The translations under genes were made by a program, and so were the position numbers. The notes under the pieces were generated by a model. The model saw only the letters and a program-made list of their open reading frames with translations, was not told the DNA's origin and ran no database searches. Below, piece after piece: positions 18,800-60,991 of a DNA stretch of 64,000 nucleotides; within the stretch, counting starts at the first letter, position 1; every line of letters begins with the position of its first letter. Source of the DNA: Flavobacteriales bacterium (lineage in GTDB: Bacteria > Bacteroidota > Bacteroidia > Flavobacteriales > Flavobacteriaceae); the NCBI GenBank assembly GCA_027067965.1, contig JAMOUV010000010.1, forward strand, positions 124,001-188,000, written 5' to 3'.

Positions 18800-19540
18800 A
18801 TGAACAACAAACTTCCACATATCGATTTAAACAAATTGCCGAATCACGTAGCCATCATTATGGACGGAAACGGCCGGTGGGCGGCTAAAAAAAATCGTGA
18901 AAGAGTGTACGGACACGTTCATGGAATCGAGAGCGTGCGTAAAATAGTGGAAGCAAGTCGAAAAATGGGACTTAAATTTTTGACTCTCTACACTTTTTCG
19001 ACCGAAAATTGGCAACGTCCCAAAGACGAAGTGGATGCATTGATGGAGCTCTTATCCGATACCATCATGAAAGAAAAAAACAATCTGATTCAAAATCAAA
19101 TCAAAATACAAATCGTGGGCGAAAGAGCATCACTACCTGTTAAAGTACAAGAAGCATTTGCCGAAGTAGAAAAAGAAACCGCCCTCAATTTTGAACTAAC
19201 TTTAAGTTTGGCATTAAATTACGGCGGAAAAAAAGAGATCATTTCGGCAGTAAATCGTATTTTGCACGAAAAAAAATACCATCATATCGACGAATCTATT
19301 TTTGAAAATTATTTATATTCGGGGAAATTACCCGATGTGGACTTAATGATCCGCACGGGAGGTGAAAAACGTATAAGCAATTTTCTGTTATGGAAAGCGG
19401 CTTATGCGGAATTATATTTTACGAATATCCTATGGCCCGATTTTAATGAAAAAGATTTTTATGAAGCCATTGCAGACTATCAAAAAAGAGAGAGGAGATA
19501 TGGAAAAACAAGCGAACAAATCAAACATGAAAAAAATTAA
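18800..19540 (+). CDS. uppS: Undecaprenyl diphosphate synthase
   Basis: UppS is a cis-prenyltransferase that builds the C55 lipid carrier for peptidoglycan and O-antigen. The 246-residue protein has HVAIIMDGNGRWA, the substrate-binding motif with the catalytic Asp, then FSTENWQRP, and the C-terminal DLMIRTGGEKRISNFLLWKAAYAELYF motif region. The 3' end overlaps the start of bamA by 14 bp, so the two are translationally close. Confidence 0.97.
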   Translation: MNNKLPHIDLNKLPNHVAIIMDGNGRWAAKKNRERVYGHVHGIESVRKIVEASRKMGLKFLTLYTFSTENWQRPKDEVDALMELLSDTIMKEKNNLIQNQIKIQIVGERASLPVKVQEAFAEVEKETALNFELTLSLALNYGGKKEIISAVNRILHEKKYHHIDESIFENYLYSGKLPDVDLMIRTGGEKRISNFLLWKAAYAELYFTNILWPDFNEKDFYEAIADYQKRERRYGKTSEQIKHEKN

Positions 19541-22073
19541 ATTAATATTAGTTTTATTTCTTATTGCGACCAATTTATTTGCACAAGAAAGTAAATTTTA
19601 TATCGTCAAAGAAGTGATATTCGAAGGCCTGCATTATTACAATCCGCAAACGGTCAAGGCATATATTGGAGTCAAAAAAGGCGATTTGTTGGAAATACCG
19701 GGAAATAAAACTGCGGAAATTGTACAAAAACTTTGGGAAAGCAAAGAATTTGATGATGTAGCCGTGTATTACGAACCCGTTGAAGACAATAAAATCAATC
19801 TGATAATTAAACTGAAAGAAGTACCCGTTTTGACCGGTGTGAATTTCAAGGGCATCCCTCGAGGCCGGGCAAAAACCTTTATCAAAGATTTAAAACTCAA
19901 CAAAGGCAAACATCATGTAAATTCGGTCTTGCTCAATACAATTGAACGAAGCGTTAAGGACTATTATGTCAATAAAGGTTTTCTAAAAACAACGGTAAAA
20001 TCGGAAGTTATTCAAGATACCGTCGGCAAAGCCCACGTGATTGTTAATGTAAACAAAGGCCCCAGAGTTAAAATCGATCACATCAGTTTTCGCGGAAATC
20101 AACATATCAAATCCTATGTATTAAGAGGAAAATTAAAAAAAACCAAAAGAATTAATCCGTTGAGATTTTGGAAAAGGTCAAAATTTATCAAAGACGAATA
20201 TGAAAAAGACAAAACCTTGCTGGAAGAATATTACCAATCGAAAGGATTCCGAAATGCACATATTACCAAAGACAGTGTTTATTGGGTAGCCGATAACAGA
20301 CTGGGAATAGACATCTGGCTCAAGGAAGGCAAAAAATATTATTTTCATGATATTAATTTTATCGGCAACACCGTCTATAGCGACGATTTCCTTTCCAGAG
20401 TTTTAGGTATTAAAAAAGGCGATCCTTACAACGGAAAACTTCTCAAAGAAAAAATTCAAAATACAAAGAAACCCGACGCACAAGATTTAACCAACCTCTA
20501 TCAAAATAACGGATACTTGTTTTCGCGCATTACGCCCGTGGAAGTAGGATTCGTAGGCGACAGCATTGATTTCGACATCAGAATATATGAAGGAAAAGTG
20601 GCCTACTTTAATAATATTTCCGTAGAAGGCAACGACCGGACAAAGGATTATGTCATATTCAGAGAACTTCGCACCTTACCCGGCGAAAAATATAACCGGG
20701 ATCTCGTGATGCGTTCATTGCGGGAATTAGCCCAATTGGGATATTTCAATCCCGAAAACATTAAACCGGAATTCAAAAACGTGGACCCTGTCAACGGACA
20801 AGTCGATATCAACTGGAAAGTAGAGGAAGGTGGAGCCAGTCAAATCCAATTACAAGCCGGTTATGGAGGTAAAGGATATTTTATAGGAACTTTGGCATTA
20901 AATTTAAACAACTTCGCCTTGGGCGATATTTTTAAAGGAAAAGCATGGACCCCCATACCCATGGGCGAAGGACAACGGCTAAGCATCAGTGCCAATTTTT
21001 CTTTCCTCTTCCAATCCTATCGTTTGGGCTTTACCGAACCCTGGCTGGGCGGAAAGAAACCGCAAACCTTTTCCATTGATATCTATAAATCTAAAAGTTT
21101 TCTGGCCAAACCGGGCACTTATCTCGAGCGCGATAAAGACCGCTACTTTAGTATTTCCGGTGCCACTATCGGCCTGGGACGCCGCTTGAAATGGCCCGAT
21201 GATTATTTTCAACTCTATCAATCCCTATCCTTTCAACATTATCGATTGCATCACTTTGTTCAATACGGCCTAGGCGCACTATTCGGATTCGAATCGGGGA
21301 TATCGAATAACTTTACTTATAACCTGGTGGTTTCTCGTCCTTCAAGTGGCCCCAATCCTATCTTCCCCATGGAAAGAAGCGATTTCAGTTTATCATTCAA
21401 ATTTACACCGCCTTATTCGTTATTTGATCGAAGAGATTTTAGAAAATTACAATACTATCCCGAATTTCAGGACGAAGAAGGGAATCCCGATTGGGCCAAA
21501 ATCAATCAGGAAAAATATCGCTGGCTCGAATATTTTAAAATTAAATTCAGCGGCGTGTGGTACAATCGCATTTATGACAAACTCGTATTGCGAACCAAAA
21601 CCGAATTCGGATTAATGGGTAGGTATAACCGCAACAGAGAAATTCCTCCGTTCGAACGTTTCTTCGTAGGCGGCGATATGCCCATTTCTTATAATATGGA
21701 CTCCCGCGAATTCATTCCATTGCGCGGTTACAGTTATGAAGCACTGAATTACGAAGCCCTTTCGGGCCGGGTAAAAGGCGGAATTGTTTATAATAAATTT
21801 TCTCTTGAACTGCGCTACCCTATCACGCTCAAACCCCAAGCATCCATTTGGGTTTTGGCATTTGCCGAAGGAGCCAATACTTATTCGGATGCAAGAAAAT
21901 ATAATCCGTTTCAACTCAAACGTTCGGCCGGCGTCGGTATGCGAATTTTCATGCAAATGTTCGGATTATTGGGTATAGATTTCGGCTACGGATTCGACCC
22001 GATTTATACCCAAACGGGAAAAGCCGTCATCCCCGGCTGGCGTACAAGTTTTATCATAAATCAACAATTATAA
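19527..22073 (+). CDS. bamA: Outer membrane protein assembly factor BamA
   Basis: BamA is the central pore of the machine that inserts beta-barrels into the outer membrane. The 848-residue protein has a signal peptide ending NLFAQ, a series of POTRA domains (about residues 25-430, with repeats such as VIFEGLHYYNPQTVKAYI and ISFRGNQHIKSYVL), and a C-terminal Omp85 barrel. VGGDMPISYNMDSREFIPLRGY holds the barrel RGY motif, and the protein ends near IINQQL. Earlier in-frame starts from 19404 lie well inside uppS, so I use the ATG before the signal peptide. The skp-like genes follow. Confidence 0.95.
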   Translation: MKKIKLILVLFLIATNLFAQESKFYIVKEVIFEGLHYYNPQTVKAYIGVKKGDLLEIPGNKTAEIVQKLWESKEFDDVAVYYEPVEDNKINLIIKLKEVPVLTGVNFKGIPRGRAKTFIKDLKLNKGKHHVNSVLLNTIERSVKDYYVNKGFLKTTVKSEVIQDTVGKAHVIVNVNKGPRVKIDHISFRGNQHIKSYVLRGKLKKTKRINPLRFWKRSKFIKDEYEKDKTLLEEYYQSKGFRNAHITKDSVYWVADNRLGIDIWLKEGKKYYFHDINFIGNTVYSDDFLSRVLGIKKGDPYNGKLLKEKIQNTKKPDAQDLTNLYQNNGYLFSRITPVEVGFVGDSIDFDIRIYEGKVAYFNNISVEGNDRTKDYVIFRELRTLPGEKYNRDLVMRSLRELAQLGYFNPENIKPEFKNVDPVNGQVDINWKVEEGGASQIQLQAGYGGKGYFIGTLALNLNNFALGDIFKGKAWTPIPMGEGQRLSISANFSFLFQSYRLGFTEPWLGGKKPQTFSIDIYKSKSFLAKPGTYLERDKDRYFSISGATIGLGRRLKWPDDYFQLYQSLSFQHYRLHHFVQYGLGALFGFESGISNNFTYNLVVSRPSSGPNPIFPMERSDFSLSFKFTPPYSLFDRRDFRKLQYYPEFQDEEGNPDWAKINQEKYRWLEYFKIKFSGVWYNRIYDKLVLRTKTEFGLMGRYNRNREIPPFERFFVGGDMPISYNMDSREFIPLRGYSYEALNYEALSGRVKGGIVYNKFSLELRYPITLKPQASIWVLAFAEGANTYSDARKYNPFQLKRSAGVGMRIFMQMFGLLGIDFGYGFDPIYTQTGKAVIPGWRTSFIINQQL

Positions 22074-22074
22074 C

Positions 22075-22082
22075 TAACTTTG
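22075..22082 (+). promoter_or_regulatory. -7 promoter box of the skp pair
   Basis: TAACTTTG directly after the bamA stop fits the consensus and is 27 bp before the ATG at 22110. Confidence 0.45.
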
Positions 22083-22109
22083 GCATAATTCTTTCATAGA
22101 TTGTTTGAA

Positions 22110-22892
22110 ATGAAACGTTTTATCACGCTCATATTAATTTTTCTTGCAGTAAACCTGGCACATCCGCAAAGAGGAAAATTGCGAATCGCTTATTTGGATA
22201 TGGAAATGATACTCGACAGCATGCCCGAATATCAACAAGCATTGCGTGAATTGGAATCACGAGTAAAAAACTGGAAAATCAAATTGGACAAAATGTCGTC
22301 CGATATTGAACAATTGAAAAAAGAACTGGAAGCCGAAAAATTAATGCTGACCGATGACCTGCTAAAGGAAAAAGAAGAAATTATCCGTTTCAAAGAAGAA
22401 CAACGACTCAAATTTCAAATGGAAAAATTCGGTCCGCAAGGCGATTTTGTATTGCAAAAACAAATGATACTCAAACCCATTCAAGATCGTGTATTTAATG
22501 CCGTTGCCAAATTGGTTCAAACCCGCAAATATGATATGGTATTCGACAAATCCAATAAAAATGCGGGCATTATTCATGTGTCGAATAAATTGGATATTAC
22601 CTCCCAAATTATCAGAATATTAAAAAAAGAACATAAAAAGGAAGAAATCGCTAAGAAAAGGAAAAATAAAAAACAAGCCATAAAAGAAAAATACGAAGAA
22701 CGTAAAAAACAATGGGAAAAAGAAAAAGAAGAAAAGGAAGAAAAAGAAGAGAAGGAAAATAAAAAAACCAAAACAAGCGAAAAAAATCAAAGAAAACAAA
22801 CCCTCAAGGAAAAATATGAGGAACGAAAAAAAAGATGGAAAAAACAAAAAAAGGAAAAAGAAAAAGAAAAAAATAATAACAATAAAAAATAA
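22110..22892 (+). CDS. OmpH/Skp-family periplasmic chaperone with Lys/Glu-rich tail
   Basis: Skp chaperones hold unfolded outer-membrane proteins in the periplasm. The 260-residue protein has a signal peptide, the family start LRIAYLDMEMILDSMPEYQQA, and coiled-coil arms to about residue 170. It then continues with about 85 residues almost wholly Lys, Glu, Asn and Arg, in which KEKYEERKK plus a Trp occurs twice. Typical Skp proteins are near 160-170 residues, as is the next gene, so the tail is an addition. A TTG at 22101 is an alternative start. Confidence 0.85.
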   Translation: MKRFITLILIFLAVNLAHPQRGKLRIAYLDMEMILDSMPEYQQALRELESRVKNWKIKLDKMSSDIEQLKKELEAEKLMLTDDLLKEKEEIIRFKEEQRLKFQMEKFGPQGDFVLQKQMILKPIQDRVFNAVAKLVQTRKYDMVFDKSNKNAGIIHVSNKLDITSQIIRILKKEHKKEEIAKKRKNKKQAIKEKYEERKKQWEKEKEEKEEKEEKENKKTKTSEKNQRKQTLKEKYEERKKRWKKQKKEKEKEKNNNNKK

Positions 22893-22904
22893 AAATCAAA
22901 GACT

Positions 22905-23411
22905 ATGAAACATTTCAAATTAATTCTATTTACATTATTGATGGGCTTAGTGAGCATTCAGGCACAAGCACAACAGAAGATAGCCCATATCGACGTACAA
23001 AAAATTCTGACCGAAATGCCCGAATACAAGCAGGCCCAAGCGGAATTAAAACAACTCTATCAAACCTATCAAAAAGAGTTTGAGCAAATGCAGAAAGAAT
23101 ACTACGAAAAACTCCAAAAGTATCAACAAGAAGCAAGCCAAGTAACCAAAGAAGAAAACCAAAGAAGAGCACAAGAATTGCAACAAATGGAGCAAAGCAT
23201 CATGCAAGCCCAACAAAGAATTCAAGAAGACTTGGCCAAAAAAGAAGCCGAAAAACTAAAAACCATTCAAGACAAACTCATGAAAGCCATTGAAGATGTG
23301 GCCACAGAAAAAAAATACGATTATGTCTTGGACAGTTCGGCTCCTTCGGCCGTATTGGTAGCACACGGACCCGACATTTATAACGATGTCAAGAAAAAAT
23401 TGGGCTTGTAA
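22905..23411 (+). CDS. OmpH/Skp-family periplasmic chaperone
   Basis: The 168-residue protein is of normal family length. The signal peptide ends near AQAQ, followed by KIAHIDVQKILTEMPEYKQAQAELKQL, a Gln/Lys/Glu-rich coiled coil, and the C-terminal KYDYVLDSSAPSAVLVAHG. It lies 12 bp after the longer paralogue and is followed by a strong terminator. Both probably assist BamA in outer-membrane protein delivery. Confidence 0.93.
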   Translation: MKHFKLILFTLLMGLVSIQAQAQQKIAHIDVQKILTEMPEYKQAQAELKQLYQTYQKEFEQMQKEYYEKLQKYQQEASQVTKEENQRRAQELQQMEQSIMQAQQRIQEDLAKKEAEKLKTIQDKLMKAIEDVATEKKYDYVLDSSAPSAVLVAHGPDIYNDVKKKLGL

Positions 23412-23518: not shown

Positions 23519-24373
23519 ATGAAAAAAATTACTTTTTTATTATCCTTTTTCTTCTTAGTAGCAGTGTATGCACAACCTAAGATTATCATTACTGCAGTAG
23601 TGGATGGAACTTGTAGCCAAGGAACACCTAAAATGGTTGAATTATATGTAAGCGGAACTGCGGATTTTTCGCAATATAAAATTCAAAAACAACCTAATGA
23701 TAATACCAATTGGGATAGAGGCGAAACCTTAACCGATCTGGGAACGGTTACCGATGATTATGCTTATGTCTATTATGACGGATCGCAAGATAATTTCTCC
23801 ACCGAATTCCCGTCAGCATCCCGCAAACCTGCTATGGAAAGCCAACAGGTTAATATAAACGGAGATGACCGAGTGCGAATTATTTCCAATGACTTGAACC
23901 AAACCGTAATGGATGTCTTTGGTGAAGAAGGCACCGATGGTACGGGCACCGCATGGGAATATACGGATTCATGGGCCAAACGCAAACCCGGCCAAGGCCC
24001 CAATACCACTTTTGATGTAAACGAATGGGATTTCGGTGGAAAAGATGCATTGGACCGTAAATGTAGTACCTCCGATAGCACTCCTTTGGAAGATGACATG
24101 GGTGGTATTCAAATCTATTTAAGCACACCCCGGCTTAGTATTGAAGGATTAAGCGTTTATCCCAATCCGGTATATAACGGCCGGTTTAAAATCATCTCCA
24201 AAGAAAACAAACTTTTTGAAGTTCAAATATTCGATCTGTTAGGTAAAAGAATGTTATCCGACGAAATTCAAGCCAATGAATGGATTGACGTTTCCACACT
24301 TACCGAAGGTATTTATATCCTGAAAATCACACAAGGAGAACAAACCTCTACACAAAAATTGATTATTCGATAA
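23519..24373 (+). CDS. Secreted protein with type IX secretion sorting domain
   Basis: The 284-residue protein has a signal peptide ending AVYAQ. Its N-terminal domain (about 22-190) reads like a lamin-tail-type beta sandwich (VVDGTCSQGTPKMVELYVSG, then LTDLGTVTDDYAYVYYDG). The C-terminal domain from about 205 (LSVYPNPVYNGRFKI to STQKLIIR) is a type A T9SS sorting signal, so it should be exported and attached to the surface. No catalytic motif is visible. It stands alone between two terminators. Function unknown. Confidence 0.85.
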   Translation: MKKITFLLSFFFLVAVYAQPKIIITAVVDGTCSQGTPKMVELYVSGTADFSQYKIQKQPNDNTNWDRGETLTDLGTVTDDYAYVYYDGSQDNFSTEFPSASRKPAMESQQVNINGDDRVRIISNDLNQTVMDVFGEEGTDGTGTAWEYTDSWAKRKPGQGPNTTFDVNEWDFGGKDALDRKCSTSDSTPLEDDMGGIQIYLSTPRLSIEGLSVYPNPVYNGRFKIISKENKLFEVQIFDLLGKRMLSDEIQANEWIDVSTLTEGIYILKITQGEQTSTQKLIIR

Positions 24374-55185: not shown

Positions 55186-56043
55186 ATGAAGAAATTTCTC
55201 ATATCCATATTAATCTTGTTCATTATTTTATCTTGCAAAAAAACCGAACCCGTGGAGGAAGAAAATCCTCTTCTACATACTCAATTCGTATTGGAATATA
55301 ATTTTTCTTACGGTACTCATCCGCAACAAAACATGGATATTTTCATTCCGCGGGGAAATCGCGATACCATGGCCCTTGTTGTACTGGTTCACGGCGGAAG
55401 TTGGGTTAGCGGAGATAAATCACATTTCTCCCAATGGTTTAATTGGAAAAAAAATGAAAAGCGGTTTGCCATTATTAATATAAACTATCGTTTGGATACG
55501 GATATGACCCGGCCGCTACCCATGCAAACCGACGATATCCATGCCGCCATTGAATCCTTAAGAAATCAATTTCATTTTCCTGCAAAACGCATTGCGCTTA
55601 TCGGTGCAAGTGCAGGCGGACACTTGGTGAGCCAATATGCTTATAAATATGACAGGGGAGCGTATGTAAAGGCCGTAATCAATTTCGTAGGACCGGTTGA
55701 TTTTAACGATCCGGAATATCATGTCCCCGGCGGTCATTGGGAATGGATATTTACAGGAATCGAACATATTTTCAATCTACCCTACGACGGAAACGAATAT
55801 CGATATGCCGAATGGAGTCCCTATCACCATGTTTCCGGTCAAAGCGCTCCGAGCATATTATTTTATGCCGGTCAAGACACCATTGTACCTTATACGCAAG
55901 GGGTGCGTTTACATGAAAAATTGAATCGCTTTTCGGTAGATAACGAATATTATTTCTATCCCCAAAGCGGGCATTTATTTAATTCCGATGATATGCAAGA
56001 TGCACTGCATAAAGTTGATGACTTTTTGGAACGACATTTGTAA
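55186..56043 (+). CDS. Alpha/beta-hydrolase lipoprotein (esterase-like)
   Basis: The 285-residue lipoprotein (lipobox ILSC) has the alpha/beta hydrolase fold: LVVLVHGGSW (oxyanion HGG), GASAGGHL with the nucleophile Ser, GQDTIVPY with the acid Asp, and SGHLFN with the catalytic His. The layout matches BD-FAE/carboxylesterase-type enzymes. Substrate unknown. It leads a rightward set of exported proteins with its own -7 box. Confidence 0.87.
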   Translation: MKKFLISILILFIILSCKKTEPVEEENPLLHTQFVLEYNFSYGTHPQQNMDIFIPRGNRDTMALVVLVHGGSWVSGDKSHFSQWFNWKKNEKRFAIININYRLDTDMTRPLPMQTDDIHAAIESLRNQFHFPAKRIALIGASAGGHLVSQYAYKYDRGAYVKAVINFVGPVDFNDPEYHVPGGHWEWIFTGIEHIFNLPYDGNEYRYAEWSPYHHVSGQSAPSILFYAGQDTIVPYTQGVRLHEKLNRFSVDNEYYFYPQSGHLFNSDDMQDALHKVDDFLERHL

Positions 56044-56112: not shown

Positions 56113-56820
56113 ATGATACGAAAAATTCTCCTTTCTTTGGTTATTTTCACAATAGCCGGATGCGGGGAACTTCAGCAAATAGTCAATCAACTCCCCGATA
56201 ACGGAATTGCAAATGCCGACATTGCCGCAGCATTGCGTCAAGCATTGAACGAAGGTATCGAACGCCAAGTGACTTCATTAATGAAAGAAGGCGGATTCTA
56301 TAATCAACCCGATGTGCGAATTTTACTACCGCAAGAACTTCAAAATGTGGAACAAAAAATGCGGGACCTCGGATTCGGTTCGCTAGCGGATGAAGGTATT
56401 AAATTGCTAAATCGCGCAGCCGAAGAAGCCGTGAAAGAAGCCAAACCCGTTTTTGTAAAGGCAGTCAAAGAAATTACCTTCGATGATGCGCGTAAAATCC
56501 TAATGGGCGATCAAACGGCCGCCACCGAATATTTAGAAAGAAAAACACGGGAAGAATTATACCGAAAATTCTATCCCATCGTGGAAAAATCATTTCAAAA
56601 AGTCGGAGCGGACAAAGTATGGAATAAAATCATTACCAATTATAATCGCATTTCTTTCGGAAAAAAAATTAATCCGAACCTCAATGATTATGTAACCCAA
56701 AAAGCATTGGAAGGGGTATATAAAAAAATTGCCGATGAAGAAAAACGAATACGAACCGATATCAATGCCCGTACTACCGAATTAATGAAAAAAGTATTTG
56801 CGCTTCAAGACAAAAAATAA
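56113..56820 (+). CDS. DUF4197 lipoprotein
   Basis: The 235-residue lipoprotein (lipobox AGC) is all-helical with the DUF4197 pattern: ALRQALNEGIERQVTSLMKEGGFYNQPDVRILLPQELQNVEQKMRDLGFG, then KITFD-type and NDYVTQKALEGVYKKIADEEKRIR segments. The family is periplasmic with no assigned function. Confidence 0.87.
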   Translation: MIRKILLSLVIFTIAGCGELQQIVNQLPDNGIANADIAAALRQALNEGIERQVTSLMKEGGFYNQPDVRILLPQELQNVEQKMRDLGFGSLADEGIKLLNRAAEEAVKEAKPVFVKAVKEITFDDARKILMGDQTAATEYLERKTREELYRKFYPIVEKSFQKVGADKVWNKIITNYNRISFGKKINPNLNDYVTQKALEGVYKKIADEEKRIRTDINARTTELMKKVFALQDKK

Positions 56821-56862: not shown

Positions 56863-57897
56863 ATGAAAAAAATTTTAATACTCATAGGGACCTTATTTTT
56901 AATTTCCTGTAACAAACAAGAAAACGGTATTAATATTGAAAATTTAAATTTTACTATCCAATCTCGCTACGGCACACATTATATTACCGGATATGAAATA
57001 CCTTTCAAAGCTACGGATAGCCATGGTAATGACATTACATCTTCGGTTAAGTTTTATATAAACGGGACTAAAATTCCCGGCTCCACTTATCTTTTCGACC
57101 GGGTAGGGTATTATATGATAACCGCCCAATGGAATTTGGGAGGCGGCACAATTAAAGAGTCGCAAAACCGGATAGAAGCACTTGTAACAAACCCCAGAAA
57201 CGAAACATTTGTTTTATTGGAAGATTTTACGGGAACGTGGTGTGTCAATTGTCCGCGTGTACATTACAAAATCGATCAACTCCTTCATCAACACGATCAT
57301 GTATATGCCATTGCGATCCATGACCGGGGACACCAAACCGATCCTTTTCATTTTGAAAAAGTATCCGAACTTACACAAACCTATCAAATCTCCGGCTATC
57401 CCACAGCGCTTATTAATAGAAAAGACGTTTGGAATGAAGAAAATTCATCCGTTGAACAATATCTTCAACGCACCCAAGCACTAGGATTAAAAATAGAAAA
57501 CACTTTCAATAATAACACGTTGAATATCAGTGTAAAAGTCCGTTTTGATATGGACTTGAAAAATGAACATTACAAACTGGTGGTCTATGCTTTGGAAAAT
57601 AATCTTCATGCCGATCAAGCCAATTCAACCGATTATTACGGCGGACAAGACCCGATTCCCGGTATGGAACATAACCATGTGCTTCGCCACGCATTTACGC
57701 AAGTATTGGGAGACGAAATTCCGGCTTCGCAGTGCCATTTCGATAATGAGTTTACGTGGCATTTTTCCGGCGACCTGCCATCAAATATAGCCGATCCGGC
57801 ACATGTCGAAATTATTGCCTTTGTAGTAGAAGGAAATGATAGACCCCGTGTAATAAACAGCAAAAAAACAAAGATCAATTCTTCAGCGGATTATTAA
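56863..57897 (+). CDS. Omp28-related protein with thioredoxin-like fold
   Basis: The 344-residue lipoprotein (lipobox LISC) has an N-terminal Ig-like region and then a thioredoxin-like core with LLEDFTGTWCVNCPRVHYKID and the cis-Pro segment ISGYPTALINR, the usual pattern of Omp28-related Bacteroidota proteins. The C-terminal half is beta-rich. The CxxC suggests redox activity; partners are unknown. It starts 42 bp after the DUF4197 gene and ends 13 bp before the large fusion gene. Confidence 0.88.
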   Translation: MKKILILIGTLFLISCNKQENGINIENLNFTIQSRYGTHYITGYEIPFKATDSHGNDITSSVKFYINGTKIPGSTYLFDRVGYYMITAQWNLGGGTIKESQNRIEALVTNPRNETFVLLEDFTGTWCVNCPRVHYKIDQLLHQHDHVYAIAIHDRGHQTDPFHFEKVSELTQTYQISGYPTALINRKDVWNEENSSVEQYLQRTQALGLKIENTFNNNTLNISVKVRFDMDLKNEHYKLVVYALENNLHADQANSTDYYGGQDPIPGMEHNHVLRHAFTQVLGDEIPASQCHFDNEFTWHFSGDLPSNIADPAHVEIIAFVVEGNDRPRVINSKKTKINSSADY

Positions 57898-57910: not shown

Positions 57911-60900
57911 ATGAAAAAATTTATTTTATTTATTATTCTTTCGTTTTTCTTTCAGAATAATTTTTCTCAAGGATTCGGATTCGGTCAAAACAAACCGATT
58001 TACAAAGATTTTAAATTCAAAGTTTACGAAACAAAACATTTCGAACTATATTCCTATCTGCATAACGATTCCCTAATAACCAAATTTCTGAAAGATGCCG
58101 AAGAATGGTATGCCAAGCATGATTTGGTAATGGAACAAACCATTATCGACTCGAAAATACCTATCATTTTGTACGACAATCATGCCGATTTTCAGCAAAC
58201 CACGGCCATCATGGGAAGCATCGGAGTAGGAACCGGCGGCGTTACCGAGGCCCTAAAAACACGTGTCGTAATGCCGCTACGGCCTTCGTACGGACAAACC
58301 AAGCATGTGCTGGGTCACGAATTGGTTCATGCCTTTCAATATTCATATGTCAAAAATAGCCGGGAACTCTCATTTCAACACTTGTCAAACGTACCGTTAT
58401 GGATGATTGAAGGAATGGCCGAGTATTTGTCTATCGGACGATACGACGCCCATACGGCCATGTGGATGCGTGACGCCGTATTGAATAATTTTTTCCCTTC
58501 CTACAAAGACATGCACAAATCCAAATATTTCCCTTACCGTTACGGACAAAATTTTTGGGCGTTTTTTGGAGCCACTTTCGGCGATACACAAATCGAGCGC
58601 TACTTGGGCGGCTCCTTGCGGCTCGGACCCGAAAAGGCCATGGACAGTCTTTATGGTATTTCAATCGACACTTTCTTTAACCGGTGGAAAACGGCAAATA
58701 AAACCTACTATAAGAAATTTTTGCCCGGCCGTGATACATTGCCGAAAGGAAAAATCGTTTTTGATGAAAAAAATGCGGGAACCATCAATATTTCCCCCAG
58801 TTTATCGCCCGACGGGAAGAAAATGATTTTCCTTTCCGAAAAACAAATTATCAGTCTCGACCTGTACCTGGCCGATCTGGAAAGCGGAAAAACCAAACTC
58901 ATTTCATCCAAAAGCATTTCCAACCATATCGATGCCATCGATGCCTACGAAAGTTCGGGTACTTGGTCGCCCGATTCCAAGAAATTTGTCTTTATCATCT
59001 TCAAAAAAGGGAAAAATCAATTGGCTGTAGTTGACGTAAAAAAACGAAAAGTTACGGACACATGGGAAATTAAAGAACTCCAATCTTTTTCTAACCCCGC
59101 GTGGTCGCCGGATGGAAAAAATATTCTCCTGCTCGGTCAAAAAGACGGCTACACGGATCTGTTTCTCTATAATATAGCATCCAAAAAAGTAACCCGGCTG
59201 ACAAACGACCCTTATGCCGAAATGACTCCGTCATGGTCGCCGGATGGAAAAAAAATTGTTTTTTCAACCGATTATTATTATTACAAATACAATAAATATC
59301 CAGCTCATTATCACTTGGGAATATTGGATCTGACCACCAATCAAAAATCATATCCGGGTGTATTCCCCGGCTCAAACAATTTGAATCCCGTTTTTGACAA
59401 TTCGGGTGAAAATATTTATTTCCTATCCGATCGCGAAGGTTTCAGGGATTTATACCTTTATGAAATAGCCACGGGAAAAGTATTTCAAAAGACAAAATTC
59501 TTTACGGGAATTTCGGGTATAACCAAATTTTCTCCGGCTATTTCCATCAATAGAAAAACCGGTGAAATCGTTTATAATTTCTTTAATAAACATCAATATC
59601 TTATTGCCCAAGCAAATCCTTCACAGTTATACCACGAGGAAGTAAACCCGTCGGAAGTAAAAAAAGATGCTGCATTATTGCCTCCTCCCGTAAAAATAGA
59701 TCAAGCGTTAAAACAATTAGCCAAGGGGCGTAAACCTGTTTATGGGCTTGTGGATGCCCTGATCATTACAAAATTCGATTCGCTTAAACTCAAAATAACC
59801 GAAAAACCATACAAGCCCAAATTTAAATTGGATTATATCAGCAATATGGGATTCGGCATGACCACTTCCATTTACGGTACGGGCATGCAAGGAGGTATTA
59901 ATATGATTTTTAGTGACATCCTCGGAAAAAATCTGCTTTCCACCGCTATTTCTCTTAATGGAGAAATTTATGATTTCGCCGCCATGGTTTTATATTTCAA
60001 TCAAAGTAAACACCGTCAAATAGGCGTTTACGGTTCACACATTCCCTATATGCAATATGCCCAGGAGTATGAAATTGTAGAAATAGAAAGACAACATTAT
60101 TTTATCAACAAATTGTATTTGATGCGCATGTTCGAAGATAAAGTGGGGGCATTTAGATTATTTCCCTTTTCCAGAACCCAACGAATAGAAGTAGGTGGCT
60201 CTTTTGCCCGGTATTCCTTCCGTGTGGACAGTTATAATTACTATTATCCGTACGATCCGGTATCTCAAAGTATTTATCCGCAAGCGGTTGGTTTCGAACG
60301 TAAAAAGGAAGCATCACCCGATGGTTTTAACCTGGGAGAATTTAATTCGGCTTATGTAATCGATAACAGTATTTTCGGCATGACCGCTCCTATGAAGGGA
60401 ATGCGTTCGCGAGTAGGTTATCAACGTTATCTCGGAGCGGCGAATTTTAATACGGCAATAGTTGATTTTAGGTACTATAAGTATTTAAAACCTTTCACTT
60501 TCGCTTGGAGATTTATGCACGTAAACCGCTTTGGAAAACATCTTCCGGAAAATCGTATAATTTATCCTTTTTTCATCACTTATGAATATTTTATAAGGGG
60601 CTATACTTTCGATGTATTGTCACGCTATGTCCAAACCACAAATGCCGATTTGACTTTTGCCGATTTAATGGGAAACAAAATTTTGGTGAGTAATTTTGAA
60701 ATTAGAATGCCCTTTACCGGCCCGGAAAGATTGGCATTACTCAAATCTTCGTTTTTGTTCTCGGATCTCTCTTTATTTGTTGATGCGGGATGGGTATGGG
60801 AACCCGGCGAAAAATTAAGTTTCAGCTTATACGGCGAACAAGGAAAACGCCGGCTTTGGGCTTCAACCGGATTGGCCTTGCGAATTAATCTTTTCGGTCA

Positions 60901-60991
60901 AATTATTATTCAACCTTATCTCAGCCGCCCGTTGACTTTGAAGAATTATTCGCGTTGGAGTTTCGGGTTGAATTTCTATCCCGGATTCTAA
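57911..60991 (+). CDS. Metallopeptidase / TolB-like propeller / outer-membrane barrel fusion
   Basis: This is a 1026-residue exported protein (signal peptide ending NFSQ) with three modules. Residues 30-270 look like a peptidase MA-like metallopeptidase: GHELVH (135-140, the HExxH zinc motif) and WMIEGMAEY, with Glu167 as the likely third ligand. Residues 290-570 form a PD40/TolB-like beta-propeller (SPDGKK-type blades near 300, 355, 400, 445). Residues about 635-1026 are beta-rich with an aromatic C-terminus (GLNFYPGF) and a BamA-like strand pattern, suggesting an outer-membrane barrel. The zinc ligands are intact, so activity is plausible. Substrate and topology are unknown. Confidence 0.83.
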   Translation: MKKFILFIILSFFFQNNFSQGFGFGQNKPIYKDFKFKVYETKHFELYSYLHNDSLITKFLKDAEEWYAKHDLVMEQTIIDSKIPIILYDNHADFQQTTAIMGSIGVGTGGVTEALKTRVVMPLRPSYGQTKHVLGHELVHAFQYSYVKNSRELSFQHLSNVPLWMIEGMAEYLSIGRYDAHTAMWMRDAVLNNFFPSYKDMHKSKYFPYRYGQNFWAFFGATFGDTQIERYLGGSLRLGPEKAMDSLYGISIDTFFNRWKTANKTYYKKFLPGRDTLPKGKIVFDEKNAGTINISPSLSPDGKKMIFLSEKQIISLDLYLADLESGKTKLISSKSISNHIDAIDAYESSGTWSPDSKKFVFIIFKKGKNQLAVVDVKKRKVTDTWEIKELQSFSNPAWSPDGKNILLLGQKDGYTDLFLYNIASKKVTRLTNDPYAEMTPSWSPDGKKIVFSTDYYYYKYNKYPAHYHLGILDLTTNQKSYPGVFPGSNNLNPVFDNSGENIYFLSDREGFRDLYLYEIATGKVFQKTKFFTGISGITKFSPAISINRKTGEIVYNFFNKHQYLIAQANPSQLYHEEVNPSEVKKDAALLPPPVKIDQALKQLAKGRKPVYGLVDALIITKFDSLKLKITEKPYKPKFKLDYISNMGFGMTTSIYGTGMQGGINMIFSDILGKNLLSTAISLNGEIYDFAAMVLYFNQSKHRQIGVYGSHIPYMQYAQEYEIVEIERQHYFINKLYLMRMFEDKVGAFRLFPFSRTQRIEVGGSFARYSFRVDSYNYYYPYDPVSQSIYPQAVGFERKKEASPDGFNLGEFNSAYVIDNSIFGMTAPMKGMRSRVGYQRYLGAANFNTAIVDFRYYKYLKPFTFAWRFMHVNRFGKHLPENRIIYPFFITYEYFIRGYTFDVLSRYVQTTNADLTFADLMGNKILVSNFEIRMPFTGPERLALLKSSFLFSDLSLFVDAGWVWEPGEKLSFSLYGEQGKRRLWASTGLALRINLFGQIIIQPYLSRPLTLKNYSRWSFGLNFYPGF

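Follow-up and report, generated by a model that had tools for sequence, protein, structure and literature searches.

A hallmark of Omp85 proteins, which are outer-membrane beta-barrels, is an L6 loop that folds back and is tied by a salt bridge to a barrel-wall motif (PMC9355242). A WD40-Omp85 subfamily with a TolB-like propeller was defined in 2014 by Heinz and Lithgow, who likened it to a fusion of BamA and BamB (PMC4104836). According to the work on PlpD, every Omp85 protein studied before it served outer-membrane protein assembly or translocation, and the enzymatic domain of PlpD itself, for which secretion to the surface had been proposed first, is reported to be exclusively periplasmic (PMC11116518). 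BepA is a zinc peptidase that cleaves outer-membrane proteins stalled on the beta-barrel assembly machinery (BAM) (PMC13067283), and a BAM structure from Bacteroidota was reported in 2025 (PMC12611786). Here we analyzed a stretch of 64,000 nucleotides from a Flavobacteriales bacterium (assembly GCA_027067965.1, contig JAMOUV010000010.1, positions 124,001 to 188,000; hereafter the window), in which the gene at 57911-60991 on the plus strand encodes an Omp85-type outer-membrane protein in whose single chain a zinc-peptidase domain and a TolB-like propeller stand in place of the POTRA domains.

The open reading frame (ORF) runs uninterrupted from ATG to stop, encodes 1026 amino acids, and was found in 9 of 9 genomes of the source genus, that of the window included. 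The features of the chain are as follows.

57911..57976, plus strand: N-terminal export signal, residues 1-22; hydrophobic, no lipobox by eye, model helix at 2-13
57980..58720, plus strand: gluzincin-fold peptidase domain, residues 24-270; from the domain model, Foldseek, structural alignment and conservation
58316..58330, plus strand: HELVH zinc-binding and catalytic motif, residues 136-140; conserved in 77/77, in helix 127-149
58409..58411, plus strand: Glu167 in EGMAEY, presumed third zinc ligand; conserved in 77/77, in helix 163-175
58751..59644, plus strand: TolB-like beta-propeller, residues 281-578; PD40 match and TolB fold match
59645..59824, plus strand: linker of two helices, residues 579-638; from the structure model
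59825..60988, plus strand: Omp85-type outer-membrane beta-barrel, residues 639-1026; PF01103 and BamA fold match
60593..60604, plus strand: IRGY, the Omp85 L6-loop signature, residues 895-898; conserved, in loop 875-922 of the model
60776..60790, plus strand: FVDAG, the FxDxG motif of the barrel wall, residues 956-960; conserved in the 77 sequences

The structure of the whole chain, predicted from 77 sequences, had a mean predicted local distance difference test (pLDDT) score of 86.8 and a predicted template modelling (pTM) score of 0.80, and placed in order an alpha/beta domain (37-268), the propeller (281-578), the two linker helices and the barrel (639-1024). In the alignment of the same 77 sequences the export signal was the least conserved stretch among those tested. 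The initial annotation had read the gene as a peptidase, a propeller and a barrel in one chain, and sequence, Pfam and full-chain structure prediction bear this out; its estimate of about 390 residues for a barrel-like C-terminal part becomes 388 residues, now refined to the Omp85 type.

The peptidase domain is the best conserved of the three, with 50 of its 247 positions invariant in the alignment; the propeller has 24 invariant positions among 298, and the barrel 32 among 388. H136, E137, H140 and E167 are identical in all 77 aligned Bacteroidota sequences (the query included), as is E171, the residue of EGMAEY that follows its first Glu, E167, by four positions. Since the other 76 sequences are 41-80% identical to the query, invariance of the four site residues argues that the motif is not a product of chance. 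The domain modelled alone had a pLDDT of 82.8, and its best Foldseek matches were M9 collagenases (E 8e-5); the structural alignment with the peptidase domain of an M9 collagenase gave Z 15.0 at a root-mean-square deviation (rmsd) of 3.7 over 227 residues, followed by M30 lugdulysin (Z 14.5) and M1 peptidases (up to Z 11.8). The window protein therefore carries HExxH and a downstream Glu on a gluzincin fold (clan MA), so that the complete gluzincin site initially read from HELVH and the Glu of WMIEGMAEY holds up. The closeness to M9 collagenase is one of fold only, as Peptidase_M9 (PF01752) scored 17.9 bits against a cut-off of 26; PF04450 was likewise under its cut-off for the window protein. 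No M48 Pfam model matched at E <= 1, and M48 was absent among the 50 fold matches shown, which excludes nothing. A search of PDB sequences with a profile of the peptidase domain returned nothing credible (best, RecA at E 0.03). The domain has a gluzincin fold but lies outside every named family tested by Pfam cut-off. An identity with DPP IV (family S9) was rejected; the match was confined to the N-terminal propeller model, and no S9 catalytic domain was listed.

The C-terminal part is a barrel, and its best solved matches by Foldseek and VIA-align were BamA and mitochondrial Sam50 (Z of about 20-21.5 over about 300 residues). BamA 8xnb aligned with Z 21.5 and rmsd 4.0 over 299 residues, and the BamA of F. 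johnsoniae with Z 20.6. The model has 17 strand elements, of which a short one (794-800) is possibly part of a loop, and PF01103 matched the window protein with 31.6 bits against a cut-off of 24. The L6 motif of Omp85 proteins is spelled (V/I)RG(F/Y); in the alignment R896 is kept in 75/77, G897 in 77/77, and Y or F at 898 in 74/77 sequences. In the model five strands come after the RGY loop, as they do after L6 in BamA. The FxDxG motif, which we take to be the partner of L6 on the barrel wall, is equally well kept (F956 77/77, D958 77/77, G960 76/77). The window protein has both the barrel type and the L6 motif together with a conserved FVDAG, and a salt bridge between the two motifs would be expected.

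Between these two domains, the propeller matched PD40 in five stretches (E 2.7e-29) and TolB by structure (Foldseek and VIA-align; Z 24.9, rmsd 2.6 over 244 residues), in agreement with the TolB-like propeller first noticed behind the peptidase. As in the WD40-Omp85 subfamily, TolB-like WD40 repeats are found N-terminal to an Omp85 barrel. The score with the TolB equivalog model was 117.2 bits, below the cut-off of 343.15. No POTRA match was found in the window protein at E <= 1, the linker included, so it does not belong with the POTRA-containing Omp85 proteins.

Profile matches at E <= 1e-30 were present in 225 of 395 genomes of the phylum, and homologues with the same architecture fall into three subfamilies: A, which holds the window protein, B and C. 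In a quick tree of 47 sequences each formed one group (supports 100, 95 and 100, respectively), although the tree is in effect unrooted and the long branches of C meet the long branches of A. Among the matches listed there were two kinds, full-length ones (A) and N-terminal ones of about 350-405 bits over approximately residues 8-577 (B). HExxH was present in the best frame of 79 of 80 A loci, the exception being L072, but the scan behind these 80 loci used WMIEGMAE among its six patterns and thus favours intact motifs. A loci picked by whole-profile score and not by motif (L119-L147) had HExxH and EGxAE in 29/29, and B loci not picked by motif had HExxH and EGx[AS]E in 31/31; the four site positions were also kept in 11/11 aligned B sequences. 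The alignment itself comprises the window protein and 76 of the 80 A loci; L072, L091 and L117 were left out for split frames and L044 for a contig end. In those three of the 80 the gene is split in two frames, by assembly error or decay. An RGF/Y/L/W-type motif was found by pattern in 24/31 B loci, and PF01103 was over its cut-off in at least three B genes.

The domain anatomy, the invariant zinc site, the Omp85 signatures and the spread over Bacteroidota are observed computationally. On these grounds the protein is probably a periplasmic, membrane-anchored peptidase that acts in assembly or quality control of the envelope, be it of the outer membrane or of the wall. In Omp85 barrels the N-terminus lies on the periplasmic side, as established for BamA. 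For this reason the peptidase and the propeller should be periplasmic, PlpD with its enzyme domain being a second example (PMC11116518), and a test of accessibility to surface protease is therefore expected to be negative. The chain would be exported by Sec and its barrel inserted into the outer membrane by BAM, with the first 600 residues hanging in the periplasm below. The propeller might dock a client or partner at the mouth of the barrel and offer a segment to the zinc site, which would clip it; most likely it would thereby mature outer-membrane or secreted proteins, or control their quality, while the envelope is assembled. Periplasmic placement, proteolysis and clients are what we infer here. 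If an Omp85 branch keeps an intact zinc peptidase throughout a phylum, proteolysis would join the tasks of the Omp85 machinery, which bears on how outer-membrane proteostasis works in Bacteroidota.

Several observations weigh against this assignment. Of the 77 orthologues 44 were scanned with PF01103, and only 5 of them reached E <= 0.001; the assignment to Omp85 is therefore based chiefly on the fold and the motifs. PF13485 (Peptidase_MA_2) gave the window protein 22.1 bits, under the cut-off of 32.4; it reached E <= 0.001 in 27/44 A members scanned and, with 54.4 bits, exceeded the cut-off in the one B member tested. Two M48 peptidase matches are present in the window genome, and the neighbours of the gene vary between lineages, with no universal partner among the loci examined. 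Finally, subfamily C, found in Flavobacteriales and in other families of the class Bacteroidia, where it is common, lacks HExxH at the site in 51/51 loci (8 aligned and 48 further, with 5 genomes shared; L031-L038, L210-L234, L238 and L240-L261 minus 5 repeats). Two of the 48 have a chance HExxH in the barrel part. In the C alignment (8/8 proteins) other residues replace the two His ligands and the catalytic Glu; at the position of Glu167, three proteins have Glu, three Asp, one Asn and one Ser. Of the homologues with the same architecture, for which conservation of HExxH had been proposed as a check, those of the A type passed with an invariant motif while those of subfamily C did not. The simplest interpretation is that C has lost the site, which, given the long branches of C and the lack of a root, is no proof. 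Since C is homologous and has no HExxH, catalysis is not the sole use of the domain. It could accordingly be proposed that the peptidase-like domain is mainly a binding or scaffold module, catalysis being secondary, in a factor for outer-membrane assembly that would hold its clients by the N-terminal domain; C keeps the domain, and its 8 whole proteins all retain MRGF and FxDxG. Binding alone, however, does not explain why the catalytic and ligand positions are kept in 77/77 A and 11/11 B sequences, and we regard this alternative as unlikely. Either way, C offers a natural comparison of catalytic and structural roles.

The distribution of the subfamilies was followed in two further samples. 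Of the 198 genomes in the class sample, 146 matched at E <= 1e-12, which is an upper bound for A plus C since propeller-only proteins can match too; at most four candidates per genome were scored. Twenty-three new loci fetched from this sample were 22 C and 1 A. In the order sample (196 genomes) the window genome gave the only A-type match; A also occurs in records named Flavobacteriales, Flavobacteriaceae or Lutibacter (L046-L049, L051). Among the matches listed, 7 of 8 A-type genomes of the class sample had a single match at E <= 1e-12. The eighth, G679, has an A copy plus a second, weak match (G679:C8, G679:C96). These counts hint that A and C exclude each other between genomes, which we treat as a lead.

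Forty of the loci compared for gene neighbours were hand-picked from the list of profile matches before their neighbours were seen, and the count for A and B outside the 80 loci of the pattern scan covers 53 loci (22 A and 31 B; G204 and G384 give two A loci each). The tables were built from ORFs and not from gene calls, so that some genes may be displaced by spurious ORFs, and the gap lengths vary with the start codons picked; L189 (no main ORF after filtering) and L235-L237 (propeller only) were dropped. PBP1A lies directly upstream on the same strand in 34/80 A loci, with gaps that range from -4 to 134 bp where measured (33 loci), and A loci of other classes have PBP2 in divergent orientation in 14/22 and RodA in 11/22 (one Pfam-checked example each). 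Such neighbours, together with the resemblance of the propeller to TolB, a Pal binder by the title of the PDB match, would suit a cell-wall protein that cleaves or tethers peptidoglycan-linked peptides or lipoproteins and couples wall growth to the outer membrane. The adjacency to PBP1A, however, was seen in a single cluster of relatives around Pedobacter and Mucilaginibacter (Transgly and Transpeptidase Pfam matches in one example); PBP2 is on the opposite strand and is divergent in 0/31 B loci; and neither PBP1A nor PBP2 was seen by eye among the ORFs around the window gene. A wall function of this kind is, in our judgment, improbable. Export of the peptidase to the cell surface through its own barrel, as first proposed for PlpD, is highly unlikely, given that the enzymatic domain of PlpD proved exclusively periplasmic (PMC11116518) and that the model places a folded propeller between enzyme and barrel, even though translocators such as FhaC are found among Omp85 proteins (PMC4104836).

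Subfamily B has a neighbourhood of its own. The RNase R gene (rnr) is immediately upstream in 21/31 loci, and a tamB-like gene stands upstream in the same orientation, at most three genes away, in 19/31 (L151, L152, L155, L159, L161, L169-L171, L174-L181, L183, L185 and L186); both are neighbours in 0/22 A loci. A cytidylyltransferase-like (rfaE-like) gene often precedes the cluster that the tamB-like, RNase R and peptidase-propeller-Omp85 genes form. TamB (PF04357) matched at the place of the cluster in 8 genomes (G065, G070, G080, G109, G169, G173, G284 and G401); in G393 the match lies on the opposite strand at a distance of about 5.6 kb, and 6 of the 30 genomes searched had no TamB match. 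Because Pfam TamB confirms only part of the clusters, and the example from L177 matches AsmA instead, the gene is called tamB-like. B is also not the sole TamA candidate in its genomes, since the 20 searched have 3-9 Omp85 matches each among the matches listed. The common thread of the A and B neighbours is thus the envelope, and the tamB-like, rnr, PBP1A and PBP2 neighbours count in favour of a peptidase of envelope assembly or quality control. So do three Bacteroidales loci (L060, L066, L095) in which a gene of one and the same cluster is immediately upstream, its tested member being PrcB_C (2.2e-16), a family known beside a protease. Among 28 C loci, clusters of MBL-fold, TauE and M20 genes occurred in 10 each (one Pfam-checked example each).

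In a bolder reading, which is possible but tentative, the protein would be a peptidase-equipped Omp85 machine that unites a barrel, a BamB-like propeller and a BepA-like peptidase, which are separate proteins in other diderms; B would be a protease-gated translocation and assembly module (TAM) with a TamB-like partner, a paralogue in Bacteroidia would have turned into an assembly factor of pseudopeptidase type, and A and C would replace each other between genomes. If true, proteolysis would be built into outer-membrane assembly across much of the phylum.

Upstream of the window gene are three genes that had been noted as exported, with an Omp28-type gene 13 bp away, and both points stand.

55186..56043, plus strand: exported BD-FAE-type esterase, upstream neighbour; PF20434, 1.7e-34
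56113..56820, plus strand: DUF4197 lipoprotein-like gene, upstream neighbour; PF13852, 3.6e-76
56863..57897, plus strand: Omp28-type lipoprotein with CxxC (WCVNCP), 13 bp upstream; PF11551, 3.3e-30
19404..22073, plus strand: listed for comparison, the BamA-like gene of the genome, a POTRA-containing Omp85; POTRA 4.9e-40, PF01103 7e-24

All three upstream proteins start with lipoprotein-like signals by eye. The Omp28-type gene precedes in 7/81 loci (window included), all of one lineage, and was rejected as a general functional partner; the DUF4197 gene is found in 5 loci, window included, of the same lineage. The last gene above opens a segment (19404-23411) in which it is followed by two OmpH/Skp-like genes, named by eye, and 23519-24373 encodes a protein with a type IX secretion sorting domain (68 bits, G000:C10:148155-148370), one of 24 such matches in the genome. 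PF01103 matches three loci of the genome. The third Omp85 (G000:C17) is on another contig, and the TamB match of the genome (G000:C32) is on a different contig from the window gene. With these two elsewhere, a TamA-equivalent role of the window protein is unsupported, as is a replacement of BepA, since the two M48 matches remain.

When compared with described systems, the window protein shares with WD40-Omp85 proteins the Omp85 barrel, the absence of POTRA domains and an N-terminal WD40-like propeller most like TolB; the description of that subfamily mentions no peptidase, and no word starting with "peptidase" occurs in the main text of the survey (PMC4104836). The literature searched, by titles and beginnings of abstracts, uses the term WD40-Omp85 in the 2014 survey alone and does not describe the chain beyond it; all preprints and most subscription journals were outside the search, so absence from print is not implied. 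PF00149 is a family that we take to be the calcineurin-like phosphoesterases. It is on PF00149, not on a gluzincin, that the "Metallo" (metalloprotease) subfamily of the same survey rests (PMC4104836). BamA shares the barrel fold and the L6 RGF/Y motif, but has POTRA domains where the window protein has peptidase and propeller, and the genome holds a separate BamA-like gene. PlpD likewise joins an enzyme domain to the N-terminal side of an Omp85 barrel, yet that domain is patatin-like and not a peptidase (PMC11116518). The TamA-TamB module is resembled by the clustering of subfamily B genes with a tamB-like gene, whereas for the window protein the TamB match is on another contig and no POTRA was found. 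With TolB the propeller fold is common, but the equivalog cut-off failed. By analogy, the nearest functional parallel would be BepA: together with BamB on BAM, it is a case of a zinc peptidase and a propeller acting at an Omp85 barrel, as proposed here, although BepA and BamB are separate proteins and the window protein is one chain, and BepA belongs to M48 while the best-ranked folds here are M9 and M30. The architecture was thus known in part, the propeller-Omp85 portion fitting WD40-Omp85; the zinc peptidase, its conservation, the HExxH-less branch and the tamB link appear to be additions.

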